Assembly (NCBI GenBank): GCA_945860165.1
Contig: CAMAPL010000015.1
Span: 1 to 62,891 of the forward strand
Reading direction: 5' to 3'
DNA from: Rhizobium sp. Q54
GTDB lineage: Bacteria; Pseudomonadota; Alphaproteobacteria; Micropepsales; Micropepsaceae
Length of the DNA: 62,891 nucleotides
The position numbers were made by a program, and so were the translations under genes. The notes beneath the pieces are model-generated. The model saw only the letters and a list, made by a program, of their open reading frames with translations. It ran no database searches and was not told the DNA's origin. This document shows, in pieces, positions 3,305 to 32,012 of this stretch; within the stretch, counting starts at the first letter, position 1; each line of letters begins with the position of its first letter.

Positions 3305-3334
3305 TTGACGGCGTGGGTGGAACTAAAGTAGAAC
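3305..3334 (+). promoter_or_regulatory. lexA promoter with perfect LexA (SOS) box
   Basis: A -35 box TTGACG (3305-3310) is followed after 18 bp by TAGAAC (3329-3334). Overlapping the -10 is GAAC-TAAAGTA-GAAC (3320-3334). This is the reverse complement of the alphaproteobacterial LexA box GTTC-N7-GTTC with exact spacing. LexA bound here would block RNA polymerase, giving autoregulation. The box is 50 bp upstream of the lexA ATG. Confidence 0.85.
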
Positions 3335-3384: not shown

Positions 3385-4131
3385 ATGCTGACCCGCAAGC
3401 AATATGAACTGCTGATGTTCATCCACGAGCGCGTGCGCGAAAGCGGCATCCCCCCCTCCTTCGACGAAATGAAGGAGGCGCTGGACCTCAAATCCAAGTC
3501 CGGCATCCACCGTTTGATCACCGCACTGGAAGAGCGCGGCTTCCTGCGCCGCATGGAAAAGCGCGCCCGCGCCCTGGAAGTGCTGAAGCTGCCCGACAAC
3601 ATGGCCGAGACCATCCGTCCCGCCACCACCCGCAGCCAGGCCCAGCGCAGCACCAGCAGCCGCATGGGCGGCCATGGCCGCACCGATATCCGCATGGCCG
3701 ATGCCCGCTCGCCCGCGCCGCGCCGCAGCTATGGCGAAGGCGGCGAAGGCACCGTCAATGTGCCTCTGGTCGGGCGCATCGCGGCTGGCACCCCGATCGA
3801 GGCGCTGCAGACCAAGATGAGCGACATTCCGGTGCCCGGCGGCATGCTGGGGCGCGGCAGCCACTACGCCCTGGAAGTGACCGGCGACTCCATGGTCAAT
3901 GCCGGCATTCTCGATGGCGACACCGTGATCATCCAGGAAGCGGACACCGCCAACACGGGCGAGATCATCGTCGCGCTGGTTGACAATGAAGAAGCAACGC
4001 TAAAGCGGCTGCGCCGCCGGGGTGACTCCATTGCCCTCGAGGCCGCCAACCCCGCTTATGAAACCCGCCTCTATGGCGCCGACCGGGTGAAGGTGCAGGG
4101 CAAGCTGGTCGGGCTTATGCGGCGATACTGA
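3385..4131 (+). CDS. lexA: LexA repressor, SOS response
   Basis: LexA represses SOS genes and self-cleaves when stimulated by RecA-ssDNA. The ATG at 3385 follows GGGAG and gives the canonical [10 protein letters not shown] start; 248 residues. The N-terminal winged HTH (1-70) includes [11 protein letters not shown] and KSGIHRL. A long basic linker follows. The C-terminal S24 peptidase domain has the Ala134-Gly135 cleavage bond, nucleophile Ser169 (TGDSM) and general base Lys207 (ATLKRL). The gene has its own promoter with an exact LexA box. It ends 7 bp from the convergent comEC end. Confidence 0.97.
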
Positions 4132-26225: not shown

Positions 26226-29200
26226 TTAAACTGCTTCTACCGACATCACGCCCGGCAAGGCCGCAACGCGGTTGCGCAAGGTCGCACTGACGGCGATGCG
26301 CTTGGTCAGCGCGATCTCCACTTCTTCGCCCGTGCCGCCCGGCACCACCAGGCTGACCAGGCCTTTGCCCGGCTGTGCGAGCTCTGCATAGAGAACGCCC
26401 AGCGACGAAGCATCCGACAGGCGTATGGTCATGCCCTCGCCCGCCTGTGCCGCCGCCTGATCCAGGTCCAGGATCGAGGCCGCGCGCAGTTTCAGTTCGT
26501 CGCCATCCCATTCGGCGCTGGCCGTGATCAAAAGAGACTTGCCCGCTTCCAGCAGCGGCCGGCTGGCCGCCAGCACTTCGGGAAACAGCATGATCTCGAA
26601 CATGCCGGTGGGATCGGAAAAGGACACAAAGGCATACATCTGGTCGTTGCGGCCACGCCGCTCCGACTTCTTGATCACGGTCCCGGCGATCTTGGCCTTG
26701 AAGCCGGCGCGGCGGCGATCTTCCACCAGCGCGGCATAGGTCGAGGCGCCCAGTCGCTTGAGCGCCGGGCCATAGGAATCCAGCGGATGGCCGGAGAGAT
26801 AAAAACCCATGGCCGAGAATTCCTCGCCCAGCCGCTCATGCACCGGCCAGTCAGGCATTGCCGTCAGCCGCAGCTCTTCCGCCGGACCACTGTCGCCGCC
26901 GAATAGCGAGACCTGGCCGCTTTCGCGTTCGCGCTGCGCCGCCTGCGCCCCGCCCAGAATGCGGTCGGAACATTCCACCAGCTGGCGGCGATTGGGATTG
27001 AGGGTGTCGAACGCCCCTGCCCGCACCAGGTTTTCAAAGGCCCGCTTGTTGACCAGGCGCGGATCTACCCGCCGGGCAAAATCGGACAGGGATTTGAACT
27101 TGCCGCCCTGCGCCCTCGCCTCCACGACATGGTCCATGGCCTGGCGGCCCACGCCCTTCACCGCCGCGAGGGCATAGAACACCGTGTTGGCCTCGGCATC
27201 GCAGGTGAACACCGCTTCGCTGACATTGATGTCGGGCGGTGCCACCTTCACGCCCAGCCTCTGCGCTTCCTGGCGGAAAATGTTGAGCCGGTCGGTGGTG
27301 CCGATATCCAGCGTCATCGAGGCGGCCAGGAATTCGACCGGATAATTCGCCTTGAGATAGGCGGTCTGGTAGGCGACCTGGGCGTAAGCTGCGGCATGGC
27401 CCTTGTTGAAGCCGTAGCCGGCGAATTTTTCCGCCTGCTCGAAAATGGTTTCGGCGACGCTGCGGATGATGCTCCGCTCCGCCGCGCCTTTCATGAATTT
27501 TTCGCGCTGCGGAATCATTTCCGCCGGAATCTTCTTGCCCATGGCGCGGCGCAGGATGTCAGCCTCGCCCATCGTATAGCCGGCCAGTTCCCGGGCGATG
27601 CGCATGACATCGTCCTGGTAGGTCATGACGCCGTAGGTTTCCTTGAGGATCGGCTCGAGGGCGGGGTGCAGATATTCCACTGCCTCCTTGCCGTTCTTGC
27701 GGGCGATATAGGTCGGAATGGCGTCCATTGGACCGGGGCGGTACAACGCCACCAGCGCCACCAGATCGTTGATGTGATTGGGCTTCATCTTGCGCAGAAG
27801 ATCGCGCATGCCGGCGCCTTCCATCTGGAAGACGCCAACGCTATCGCCGCGGCTGAGCATTTCAAACGTGTGGGGATCGTCGAAATCGATGGTCTGGGTG
27901 TGCAGCGCCACGCCGCGTTTTTTCAGCAGCTCTTCGGCCTTGGCGATGACGGTCAGCGTCTTTAGGCCCAGAAAGTCGAACTTCACCAGGCCGGCTTTTT
28001 CCGCATCCTCATAGTCGAACTGCGTCACCGGCATGTCGGAGCGCGGATCGCGATAGAGTGGCAGGATCTCGTCCAGCGGGCGGTCGCCGATCACCACGCC
28101 GGCCGGATGGGTCGAGGCATGACGATAAAGGCCTTCGATCTGCCCGGTGATCTGGAACAGCCGCTGGGCCATCGGTTCCTGTTCGGCGATCTGTTGCAGG
28201 CGGGGTTCGCTGTCCACCGCTTCCTGCAGGGAAATGGATTTTCCCGGCGGATTGGGGATCAGCTTGGCGATGCGGTCCACCAGCCCCAGCGGCATCTGCA
28301 GCACGCGGCCCGCATCGCGCACCGCGGCGCGCGCCTGAAGCGATCCCAGCGCGATGATCTGCGCCACGCGGTCGGCGCCATATTTGTCGCGCACATAGCG
28401 CACCACCTCGTCGCGCCGCTCCTGGCAGAAGTCGATATCGAAGTCCGGCATGGACAGACGTTCGGGATTGAGAAAGCGCTCGAAGAACAGGCCGAAGCGC
28501 AGCGGGTCCAGGTTGGTGATGTCCAGCGCCCAGGCCACCAGCGAAGACGCACCGGAACCGCGCACGCCCACCGGAATGCCGCGTCCCCGGGTCCATTTCA
28601 TGAAGTCCGAAACGATCAGGAAGTAGCCAGGAAAACCCATCCGGTTGATGATGCCCAGTTCATAGTCCAGGCGCTCGTCATAGACACTGCGTTCCGCCGC
28701 CAGCTTGGCGCCGGTCAGCCGCCGCTCCAGCCCTTCCAGCGCCTGTGTCTTCAATTCAGCTTCCGCCGTCAGGCCAGATTCCGGCACGAACACCGGCAGG
28801 ATCGGCTTACGCTTCATCGGGCGGAAGGCGCAGCGGCGCGCGATCTCGATGGTGTTCTCGATGGCTTCCGGCAGGTCGGCGAACTGGGCCTGCATTTCCG
28901 ACGGGATCTTGAAACGATGCTCCCGGGTCAGACGGCGTCGGTCGTCCTGGGACACGAAGGCGCCATCGGCGATGCACAGCAGCGCGTCATGGGCTTCATA
29001 CATATTGGCCCGGCCGAAATGCACGTCATTGGTCGCCACCAGCGGCAGCCTTGCCGCATAAGCCATGTCCAGCAGCCAGTCTTCGGTGGCGCGTTCTTCC
29101 GCCAGTCCGTGGCGCTGCAGCTCGACATAGAGACGGTTGGGAAACGCGGCGGCGATTTTCGCCAGCAACATCTCGGCGGCTTCCTTCTGGCCCTCCAGCA

Positions 29201-29642
29201 GCAACTGGTTGACCGCGCCGCCCGGCCCGCCGGTCAGGGCGATCAGGCCACCCGAATGCGCAAAGAGCTTTTCGGCCTTCACATGCGGCCAGTCGCCTGC
29301 TTCCACGTCGAGATAGGCGGCCGACAGGAGCTTGGTCAGGTTCTGGTAGCCGGCTTCATTCTGCACCAGCAGCGGTATATGCGGCGGCTTCTTGCGCGAG
29401 CCGGTTTGCAGGGGGCTGCGGGGCGCGAACTCCACCGACAGCAGCGCGCCCACGATGGGCTGGATGCCGGCCTTGGCCAGGGTGTCGGCGATCTCATAGA
29501 CCCCGAACAGGTTGTTGGTGTCGGTGACCGCTGCCGCGGGGCTTCCCGCCTCACGCGCCAGGTCCGCCAGTTCCTGGGGGCGCACCGCCCCTTCCAGCAG
29601 CGAATAGGCGCTTTTCACGCGCAGATGAATGAAGGACGCCAT
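26226..29642 (-). CDS. dnaE: DNA polymerase III alpha subunit, replicative (DnaE1 type)
   Basis: This is the catalytic subunit of the replicative polymerase. The 1138 residues include an N-terminal PHP domain (FIHLRVKSAYSLLEGA), the polymerase core with catalytic aspartates in MPDFDIDFC (residue about 400), and the tandem HhH and OB-fold regions. Its length and the intact DnaE1-like N-terminus argue against the error-prone DnaE2. It lies downstream of a short LexA-controlled ORF with a 93-bp gap that holds a weak hairpin, so partial SOS read-through is possible. It ends at the palindromic repeat. Confidence 0.96.
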   Translation of the reverse strand: MASFIHLRVKSAYSLLEGAVRPQELADLAREAGSPAAAVTDTNNLFGVYEIADTLAKAGIQPIVGALLSVEFAPRSPLQTGSRKKPPHIPLLVQNEAGYQNLTKLLSAAYLDVEAGDWPHVKAEKLFAHSGGLIALTGGPGGAVNQLLLEGQKEAAEMLLAKIAAAFPNRLYVELQRHGLAEERATEDWLLDMAYAARLPLVATNDVHFGRANMYEAHDALLCIADGAFVSQDDRRRLTREHRFKIPSEMQAQFADLPEAIENTIEIARRCAFRPMKRKPILPVFVPESGLTAEAELKTQALEGLERRLTGAKLAAERSVYDERLDYELGIINRMGFPGYFLIVSDFMKWTRGRGIPVGVRGSGASSLVAWALDITNLDPLRFGLFFERFLNPERLSMPDFDIDFCQERRDEVVRYVRDKYGADRVAQIIALGSLQARAAVRDAGRVLQMPLGLVDRIAKLIPNPPGKSISLQEAVDSEPRLQQIAEQEPMAQRLFQITGQIEGLYRHASTHPAGVVIGDRPLDEILPLYRDPRSDMPVTQFDYEDAEKAGLVKFDFLGLKTLTVIAKAEELLKKRGVALHTQTIDFDDPHTFEMLSRGDSVGVFQMEGAGMRDLLRKMKPNHINDLVALVALYRPGPMDAIPTYIARKNGKEAVEYLHPALEPILKETYGVMTYQDDVMRIARELAGYTMGEADILRRAMGKKIPAEMIPQREKFMKGAAERSIIRSVAETIFEQAEKFAGYGFNKGHAAAYAQVAYQTAYLKANYPVEFLAASMTLDIGTTDRLNIFRQEAQRLGVKVAPPDINVSEAVFTCDAEANTVFYALAAVKGVGRQAMDHVVEARAQGGKFKSLSDFARRVDPRLVNKRAFENLVRAGAFDTLNPNRRQLVECSDRILGGAQAAQRERESGQVSLFGGDSGPAEELRLTAMPDWPVHERLGEEFSAMGFYLSGHPLDSYGPALKRLGASTYAALVEDRRRAGFKAKIAGTVIKKSERRGRNDQMYAFVSFSDPTGMFEIMLFPEVLAASRPLLEAGKSLLITASAEWDGDELKLRAASILDLDQAAAQAGEGMTIRLSDASSLGVLYAELAQPGKGLVSLVVPGGTGEEVEIALTKRIAVSATLRNRVAALPGVMSVEAV

Positions 29643-29703: not shown

Positions 29704-29724
29704 AGGGCGCTGCCTGTGCGCCCT
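29704..29724 (-). terminator. Weak hairpin after the SOS ORF, before dnaE
   Basis: AGGGCGC (29704-29710) and GCGCCCT (29718-29724) form a perfect 7-bp stem with a 7-nt loop, beginning 12 bp after the stop of the small ORF. There is no real U-tract after it on the minus strand. It may act as an inefficient terminator or attenuator between the SOS ORF and dnaE. Confidence 0.4.
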
Positions 29725-29735
29725 ATCCACAGCGA

Positions 29736-29840
29736 TCAGGTGCTGGAACCCAGAATGGCGTGGGCGCCGCCGGCCAGCACAAAGGCCGACACCATGAAAA
29801 GAATAAGCCCCGCACCCGCTGCCGCATCCTTGATCCACAT
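29736..29840 (-). CDS. SOS-controlled 34-residue single-span membrane protein (SidA-like in design)
   Basis: ATG at 29840 follows GGGAG with ideal spacing, and the ORF stops at TGA 29736. The protein starts MWIKD, then has one long hydrophobic segment (about residues 6-30, including GLILFMVSAFVLAGG), and ends in a short polar tail. An exact LexA box lies 29 bp upstream, overlapping a -10 like that of lexA. In Caulobacter, SidA is an SOS-induced single-span membrane peptide of about 29 residues that blocks division. The size, topology and control are alike; sequence homology is not established. The neighbour downstream is dnaE. Confidence 0.7.
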   Translation of the reverse strand: MWIKDAAAGAGLILFMVSAFVLAGGAHAILGSST

Positions 29841-29869
29841 GATCGCAATCTCCCGCTTGATCGATTTTT

Positions 29870-29884
29870 GTTCTACTTTGGTTC
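29870..29884 (-). promoter_or_regulatory. LexA (SOS) box upstream of the 34-residue ORF
   Basis: GTTC-TACTTTG-GTTC at 29870-29884 is an exact GTTC-N7-GTTC LexA box. Read on the minus strand it is GGAACCAAAGTAGAAC, differing by one base from the lexA operator GGAACTAAAGTAGAAC. A -35 TTGTTT lies 17 bp upstream of TAGAAC, the same arrangement as at lexA. The stretch 29885-30052 holds no gene I can support. Confidence 0.85.
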
Positions 29885-30052
29885 CATCCAGAAAACAAGA
29901 ACAAAACGTGACCGAATTGCGGGAGACCTTGGCGGCGTTTGACAAATAAAGTGGGTTGCGCTGAAAGCTCATGTGCAGACAAGCATCCGCACACGGATCA
30001 GTTGCATTCGTTCCGGCAAAATCCGCCCGTTAACGTTTGGCCGCGCCAGAAG

Positions 30053-30745
30053 TTAACGCGAAAGCTGCGTGCCCTCGATCAGCTTGCCCTGGTGCAGCAG
30101 CAAGGCGCGATCCATGCGCGATGCCAGTTCGAAATTGTGGGTCGCGATCAGCGCCGCCAGGCCTTCGGCGCGGGTGATGGCGATCAGGGCGTCAAACACC
30201 CCGCCCGAGGTGCGCGGATCCAGATTGCCGGTGGGCTCATCGGCCAGCAGGATGCGCGGGCGATTGGCCAGGGCGCGGGCGATGGCAACGCGCTGCTGCT
30301 CGCCGCCCGACAGCTGCGAGGGCAGATGCGACAGCCGCTTGCCCAGCCCCATCACCTCCAGCAGCCGCGCCGCTTCCACCGCCGCATCCTTGCGCGACAC
30401 ACCCGCGATCATCTGCGGCAGGATCACATTCTCCAGGGCGTCGAATTCCGGCAACAGGTGATGGGCCTGATAGACAAAGCCGATCTTCTCGCGGCGTATA
30501 CGGGTGCGCTCCTGATCCGGCAGTTTCGACGTGGCCACGCCTTCGATGGTGATCTCGCCGCTGGTCGGCGCTTCCAGCAGGCCCGCGATATGCAGCAGCG
30601 AGGACTTGCCCGCCCCGGACGGCCCCACCAGCGCCACGATCTCGCCCGGCTTCAGGACCATCGACAATTCGCTGAATACTTCCAACTGGCCCTCACCCTC
30701 CTTGTAGAGGCGGGTGATGTTCTCAAGCTTCAGCACCTCATCCAT
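30053..30745 (-). CDS. lolD: Lipoprotein-releasing ABC transporter ATPase
   Basis: LolD powers release of outer-membrane lipoproteins from the inner membrane to LolA. The 230-residue ATPase shows Walker A (GPSGAGKSS), the Q-loop region, the signature [15 protein letters not shown], Walker B ([12 protein letters not shown]) and the H-loop (IATHNFELA). It overlaps the lolC end by 8 bp, so the two are one operon. Confidence 0.95.
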
Positions 30746-32012
30746 GGCGCAGCGCCTCGACCGGATCGAGCCGCGCTGCCCGCCAGGACGGATACAGGGT
30801 GGCGATGAAGGTCAGCACCAGCGCCATCACCACCACCGCCACCACCTCGCCGGGATCCATCTGGGCGGGCATGCGCGACAAGAAATAAACGGTGGGATCG
30901 AACAGCGTCTTGCCGGTCAGGCTCGACAGGAACTGCCGGATATTCTCGATATAGGTGCAGAACAGGACCCCGATGATCAGGCCGATTAGGGTGCCGGCCA
31001 CGCCGATGCTGGCGCCGGCGATGAAGAACACCCGCATCATGGCACCGCGCGTCGCGCCCATGGTGCGCAGGATGGCGATGTCGCCGCTCTTATCCTTCAC
31101 CAGCATGATCAATCCCGACACAATGTTCAGCGTTGCAACCAGAATGATCAGCGACAGAATCAGGAACATGGTGCTGCTCTCCACCTCCAGCGCCTGAAGG
31201 ATGGTGTTGTTGAGTTGCTGCCAGGTGACCAGCCGCATCTGCGGCCCCGCTGCCTTGCTGATTTCGGGCACCAGCGCCAGATCGGCTTCGGGATCGCGCA
31301 CCATCAGTTCGATGCCGTTCACTGCTTCGCCGGTGTTGAAATAGAGCTGCGCCTCGCCCAGCGGCATGAAGATGTAGTTGTTGTCGTACAGCGTATTGCC
31401 GATGCGGAAGGTGCCGATCACATGATAGGTCTTGATGCGCGGCGTGACGCCGAAGGGCGTGACATTGCCCCGGGGCGAAATCAGGGTGATGTCGCCGCCC
31501 AGCCGCAGGCCCAGCTTGTTGGCCAACCCCTGGCCGATGATGACCGATTCATCGCCTTCAAAATATTGCAGGGCGCGGGGCGAAATTTTCTCGACCAGCA
31601 CATTCACATTGGCGAGGTCGGCGCGCCGGATGCCCCGCACCAGCACGCCGGAGGTGGCACCGTTCTGGCTGGCCATCACCTGCCCGTCCACGATGGGGAC
31701 CGCGCGCGTGACGCCCGGGATCGCCTTCATACGCTGGGTGATGGCATCGTAATCGGCCAGGTTGCCCATCTGGGACTGGACGGTGATATGACCCGACAGG
31801 CCCAGGATGGAGCGCAGCAGCTCGACCCTAAAACCGTTCATCACCGACATCACGATGATCAGGGTGGCGACGCCCAGGGCGATGCCGATCAGCGAGAACA
31901 GCGAGATGACCGAAATGAAGCTTTCCTGCCGCTTGGCACGCAGATAGCGGGCGGCGATCATCCACTCGAACGGCGCGAAAATACCTATCTTTTTACGAAG
32001 CGATTCTGGCAT
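30738..32012 (-). CDS. lolC: Lipoprotein-releasing system permease (LolC/E family)
   Basis: This is the membrane partner of LolD. The 424-residue protein has one N-terminal membrane segment ([20 protein letters not shown]), a large periplasmic domain (about 50-280) and three C-terminal membrane segments, the standard LolC/E layout. Only one permease gene is present, as in many Alphaproteobacteria, so it presumably forms a homodimer. It is divergent from the MFS gene with an 83-bp shared gap. Confidence 0.92.

Follow-up and report, generated by a model that had tools for sequence, protein, structure and literature searches.

SidA of Caulobacter crescentus is a 29-amino-acid inner-membrane protein that acts on FtsW, with FtsN and FtsI also involved; as described in the available portion of PMC4211646, it is produced upon LexA cleavage, and division is blocked. 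In Caulobacter, SidA and a second inhibitor, DidA, are both suppressed by two mutations in ftsW and by one in ftsI (PMC4211646, same portion). According to the excerpted text of PMC12700426, the published LexA motif of Caulobacter is GTTCN7GTTC, and the filamentation of a lexA deletion strain requires sidA. Outside the division inhibitors, DinQ is described in extracts of PMC3567139 as an SOS-regulated, toxic one-helix peptide. In the titles, opening parts of abstracts, and passages of the literature available to us, no SidA relative outside Caulobacter was recognised. To our knowledge, damage-induced division arrest in alphaproteobacteria other than Caulobacter is largely unstudied.

The window (the whole stretch of DNA that was analysed, 62,891 nucleotides) carries a short ORF whose translation is MWIKDAAAGAGLILFMVSAFVLAGGAHAILGSST (34 codons and a stop). 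The original prediction had presented it as a 34-codon ORF with an ideal ribosome binding site, separated by 29 bp from an exact GTTC-N7-GTTC box, and we confirmed these coordinates and letters; the 29 bp are counted from the start codon of the ORF to the box. The features of this region are as follows.

29736–29840, minus strand: SidA-like ORF, 34 amino acids with one predicted membrane helix (translation, conservation in the genus, AlphaFold2)
29850–29854, minus strand: Shine-Dalgarno-like GGGAG, 9 nt 5′ of the ATG (sequence)
29870–29884, no strand assigned: LexA-type box GTTCTACTTTGGTTC, overlapping the −10-like hexamer (sequence, conservation in the genus loci)
29870–29875, minus strand: putative −10-like hexamer TAGAAC (sequence, spacing test)
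29893–29898, minus strand: putative −35-like hexamer TTGTTT, 17 bp from the −10-like hexamer (sequence, spacing test)

Since TTGTTT and TAGAAC stand at a 17-bp spacing on the strand of the ORF, the box lies over a promoter-like core. A TTG at a spacing of 16–18 bp was found in 29 of the 58 genus loci with the box, indicating that this promoter register is not universal. The product had been proposed to be one short membrane helix, and the predictions agree with this: the hydropathy maximum of the peptide was 2.24 in a 19-residue window, which is enough for one membrane helix, and AlphaFold2 run on the single sequence predicted one helix at residues 2–31 with a mean pLDDT of 86.8. The peptide had no match in NCBIfam or Pfam at E ≤ 10.

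As stand-alone evidence, the box was rejected because it occurs at chance level in both the window and the genome. Three boxes were found in the window versus 1.23 expected, and at least three appeared in 13 of 100 shuffles; genome-wide, there were 45 boxes versus 39 for the pattern read backwards. Besides the place of the SidA-like ORF, we inspected the neighbours of 17 of the 45 places (15 stretches and two places in the window). Among the neighbours listed after filtering, the only telling ones were lexA and recA-, ssb-, and mraZ-like genes, and most of the 17 places looked like chance occurrences. The lexA gene and its box are in the window.

3385–4131, plus strand: lexA repressor gene (TIGR00498, 171.7 bits, cut-off 110.95)
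3320–3334, no strand assigned: LexA-type box, 50 bp 5′ of lexA, with a spacer one base off that of the box of the SidA-like ORF

On the lexA strand this box reads GAACTAAAGTAGAAC, and that of the SidA-like ORF reads GAACCAAAGTAGAAC. The same class of box lies ca. 100 to 140 bp 5′ of genes of the same genome that read as recA and ssb, names given by inspection.

A GTTC-N7-GTTC box is also present at C6:107799-107813 of this genome (G000; L032 and L382), ca. 192 bp 5′ of a gene that we named mraZ-like by reading. mraZ heads the cluster of division and cell-wall genes. Of 26 genus genomes, 12 had a box no more than 350 bp 5′ of mraZ, with two main positions and orientations among them, as a raw count uncorrected for chance; a second link from LexA to division is possible but unproven. 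Separately, a second match to the S24 peptidase domain (C19:2943-3279; L035 and L077) adjoins an AT-rich GTTC-N7-GTTC box and is perhaps a UmuD-like SOS protein.

The signal above chance was conservation, not the box alone, and conservation was decisive. The peptide was present in 61 of the 69 genomes of the genus at E ≤ 0.01 and in 0 of the 27 genomes of the sister genera of the family at the same threshold. Of the eight genus genomes without it, six fall below 85% completeness; among these six, G050 gave a weaker match with an E value of 0.076. For the locus analysis, 59 genus loci were examined, leaving out the hits in G115, G116, and G120 and including G050 even though its E value is above 0.01. 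The exact GAAC-N7-GAAC box (as read on the ORF strand) was kept in 58 of these 59 loci. Among 23 disjoint genus pairs, pN/pS of the SidA-like ORF was 0.223, the differences at codon positions 1, 2, and 3 numbered 64, 40, and 180, respectively, and the 27-codon core was free of internal stops in every genus member. The low pN/pS, the excess of third-position changes, and the intact core indicate that the ORF is a translated gene under purifying selection. Conservation of the ORF and its box in relatives, which the original prediction had named as the check on its reading, was thereby borne out.

L023 was the sole locus among the 59 without an exact LexA box within 110 bp of the SidA-like ORF. 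The ORF of this locus may have escaped SOS control.

The ORF stands between the following features of its neighbourhood.

26226–29642, minus strand: dnaE, DNA polymerase III alpha subunit, 93 bp 3′ of the ORF (NCBIfam NF004226, 1377 bits)
29723–29731, minus strand: DnaA-box-like site TGTGGATAG, between the ORF and dnaE (genus-locus count versus shuffles)
30053–30745, minus strand: upstream gene for a lolD-type ABC ATPase (Pfam ABC_tran; the name lolD comes from motif and context)
30738–32012, minus strand: gene for a lolC/E-type permease (domains MacB_PCD and FtsX; named by its context)

The dnaE start motif was found beside the SidA-like ORF in all 59 genus loci, and the lolD motif in 34 of the 59. 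A DnaA-box-like site was present within 120 nt 3′ of the ORF stop in 51 of the 59 loci, compared with a mononucleotide-shuffle expectation of 0.5, and DnaA may control dnaE here. Because the ORF is located 93 bp 5′ of dnaE on the same strand, a single transcript is possible, and the ORF could then be a leader reading frame, with the box placing dnaE under SOS control. We regard this explanation as very improbable: the amino acids are conserved and the changes are mostly at third positions, the boxed ORFs of other genera start anywhere from 120 to 433 bp before dnaE, and the stretch between the ORF and dnaE folded no better than shuffles (z −0.56).

The suggestion that sidA may lie near dnaE, which the original prediction had made, holds for the Caulobacter genomes examined. 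In these genomes, reached via a DivK scan, an ORF of 29 codons lies 5′ of dnaE under a GAAC-N7-GAAC box. The ORF in this slot of Caulobacter sp. BP25 encodes 29 amino acids, with another in-frame start 11 codons upstream, and matched NF033228, 'cell division inhibitor SidA', with 70 bits (E 1.2e-19; cut-off 35), indicating that sidA occupies the slot upstream of dnaE. Caulobacter SidA ORFs start 128–145 bp 5′ of dnaE. No DnaE start was found in the MAG labelled C. vibrioides. In C. crescentus itself, the placement of sidA at dnaE rests on these relatives and on locus tags of two numberings, CCNA_02004 for sidA and CC1926 for dnaE, as they appear in the available parts of PMC10769358 and PMC1839093, respectively.

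We then counted genomes in which the dnaE-upstream region contains both the box and an ORF for a membrane peptide. In the first set reached via DivK, the exact box with a membrane ORF was found in 16 of 28 genomes by the stricter rule (shuffle mean 0.0) and, when up to one box mismatch and a looser rule were allowed, in 21 of 28; L255 (278 bp upstream) was left out of these counts, and L260, a second DnaE hit, was dropped. The second set had the exact box with a membrane ORF in 16 of 27 genomes, including Brevundimonas, Robiginitomaculum, Stappia, and a Rhizobiaceae MAG, a count that leaves out L379 (weak DnaE hit) and L380 and L381 (second DnaE hits) and in which L352 and L353 appear to recur in the class and family sets. 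The stretches of Methyloceanibacter, Filomicrobium, and Asticcacaulis that we examined had no box with a membrane ORF before dnaE. A class sample of 289 genomes contained no DivK match closer than 83%. In the class sample outside the genus, 19 of 124 distinct genomes, belonging to 10 families, had the box and a membrane ORF before dnaE. These 124 are a non-random draw, taken from the genomes whose listed DnaE hits were better, out of 276 non-genus genomes that had a hit; L320 was left out as the same genome as L095. The shuffle mean for this count was 0.035 with a maximum of 1, and the reverse strand gave 0. In the first 65 class genomes, an exact box in the orientation of dnaE and at most 450 bp away occurred in 12 regions, each of which had a membrane ORF as well. 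The sister-genus stretches had the exact box and a membrane ORF in 9 of 27, three of the 27 being without a good dnaE start; the combination was found in 0 of 5 stretches of sister genus g45 and 2 of 11 of g46.

In the alignment, the corner [W/F/I]-x-[K/R/Q/E]-[D/E] stands at the N terminus of the peptides, with the helix after it. By reading, this corner motif or a near form of it was present in 14 of the 19 boxed class ORFs, and six of the nine boxed sister-genus ORFs start like WLQE, WFQE, or WIEE. Boxed membrane ORFs without the W-x-K-D corner were seen before dnaE in L130, L294, L319 (family f41), L136, and L271 (for example, ..FEFVVFASVLATLVFWSEIVHSFTG). These corner-less ORFs are SidA that has diverged very far, or else an unrelated gene that has taken its place.

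The ORF in the window had no match to NF033228 at E ≤ 10. It is therefore not an equivalog in the sense of NF033228, and we claim relation by descent alone. Two Brevundimonas ORFs reached 26.9 bits (E 3.3e-6) and 23.7 bits with NF033228, below the cut-off of 35, and Brevundimonas ORFs (MTRWVRDLLSLASCGG..., the one with 26.9 bits) represent a step between the WVKD and IARE forms. No match was obtained for 11 more distant boxed ORFs (two in one search and nine of 10 in another). In the control genomes, NF033228 had matches in 9 of 14, C. vibrioides included, and exceeded the cut-off in one. Judged by these sequences, NF033228 covers the Caulobacter-like forms. The only match to NF033228 in the genome that contains the window, at C24:4889-4942 with 15 bits (below the cut-off), was rejected as chance; no dnaE-type setting was seen in the 400 bases around it.

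The peptide in the window and Caulobacter SidA have 15% identity, and the direct profile match from the genus to Caulobacter SidA failed. In hmmsearch with the genus profile, Caulobacteraceae ORFs did not rise above decoys, and a direct hhalign comparison between the genus and Caulobacteraceae was equalled in 6 of 200 shuffles and, in a second run, in 13 of 100, which is not significant. We therefore relied on intermediate profiles. Searched against the class stretches with hmmsearch, the genus profile matched the boxed ORF of L137 best (E 0.0015). By hhalign, the genus scored 36.8 with the sister genera (best of 100 column shuffles, 13.0), the sister genera 33.5 with other alphaproteobacteria (10.2), and the latter 33.3 with Caulobacteraceae (12.4). 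Two provisos apply to these scores: the intermediates were chosen in part by eye for their W-x-K-D corner, a choice biased towards a link, and the column shuffles retain the shape that every one-helix peptide has. Under the same provisos, the steps that skip an intermediate gave 15.9 for the sister genera with Caulobacteraceae (best of 100 column shuffles, 10.9) and 25.6 for the genus with other alphaproteobacteria (best of 200 shuffles, 14.3). Of the boxed class ORFs, L130, L136, L271, L275, L294, and L319 were left out of the profiles, as was L087, which is near-identical to L084; the sister-genus profile omits L335, L339, and L343 and contains L329, which has one mismatch. Position and box, which were unselected by motif, carry much of the weight for homology. 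The proposed comparison with SidA thus gave a mixed outcome: the stepwise profile chain connects the two, but their direct similarity is not significant and NF033228 missed the ORF.

Descent from a common ancestor with SidA would also be compatible with an SOS membrane peptide whose target is not FtsW but FtsN, FtsI, or another membrane protein. It is mainly the N-terminal W-x-K-D corner that is kept, with little of the helix shared with Caulobacter SidA, and DidA, which in the two-hybrid assay binds FtsN and neither FtsW nor FtsI, nevertheless acts as a block on the same complex, as stated in the accessible part of PMC4211646. We consider such a target unlikely, and because the ftsW and ftsI mutations suppress both SidA and DidA in Caulobacter, a block of division would still be a possible outcome even then.

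In size class, hydrophobicity, and LexA-type control, the peptide matches toxins of the TisB/DinQ kind as well. An SOS-induced membrane toxin of this kind would lower the membrane energy and slow growth, and division would not be stopped. TisB is a toxin acting on the membrane, and the translation of toxins of this kind is limited by an antisense RNA or a long structured leader. The fixed slot beside dnaE and the profile chain to SidA argue against a toxin, an explanation that we hold to be decidedly improbable.

The ORF is probably a divergent member of the SidA family that works as an SOS checkpoint on division. The original prediction of a candidate SidA-type SOS division inhibitor is in this respect supported by the conservation, the slot, and the stepwise profiles. 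The analysis directly supports the coding gene, the purifying selection acting on it, the box, the slot at dnaE, and the profile chain to SidA. From these we infer LexA binding, induction by damage, membrane insertion, filamentation, and a target in FtsW/I/N, which could be connected as follows. LexA bound to the box over the promoter would keep the gene off. Upon DNA damage, LexA would cleave itself and the peptide would be produced. The peptide would then enter the inner membrane as a single helix that begins with a short W-I-K-D segment, and it may keep the late divisome (FtsW with FtsI and FtsN) inactive until repair is complete.

It also seems fairly likely that SidA is not confined to Caulobacter, and that an SOS checkpoint peptide has stood 5′ of dnaE, after lolD, since early alphaproteobacterial history, diverging so fast that the family model and searches miss the forms unlike those of Caulobacter. 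The adjacency to dnaE, together with the DnaA-like box in between, may tie the checkpoint to replication. While SidA itself was already known, the breadth is new and suggests a checkpoint older and wider than one genus. Since the gene can be found by its position 5′ of dnaE and its GAAC-N7-GAAC box, candidates in many families can be collected together, and the natural series of diverged SidA-like sequences could allow the residues that touch the divisome to be read. A gene of ca. 30 codons can be traced class-wide through its place and promoter where direct sequence search fails.

Among known systems, YneA of Bacillus and SosA of Staphylococcus are likewise SOS-induced division inhibitors, and YneA acts on FtsW, so far as the partial sources describe them; they belong to another phylum, and we liken them to the peptide by description, not by sequence. 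TisB and DinQ of Escherichia coli share with it the character of short SOS-induced membrane peptides, and differ in being toxins that act on the membrane; this likeness, too, is by description. DidA of C. crescentus is a small one-helix inhibitor of the FtsW/I/N complex as well. In contrast to the peptide described here, it has 71 amino acids and is induced by DriD, not through LexA (PMC4211646, available portion). SidA of C. crescentus (NF033228; CCNA_02004) differs in starting with I/V-x-R-E, whereas the peptide in the window starts with W-I-K-D, and in the low identity and missed family model given above. The two share a LexA-type box, a length of ca. 30 amino acids, one predicted helix, the slot directly 5′ of dnaE (in the Caulobacter genomes examined), and stepwise profile similarity.
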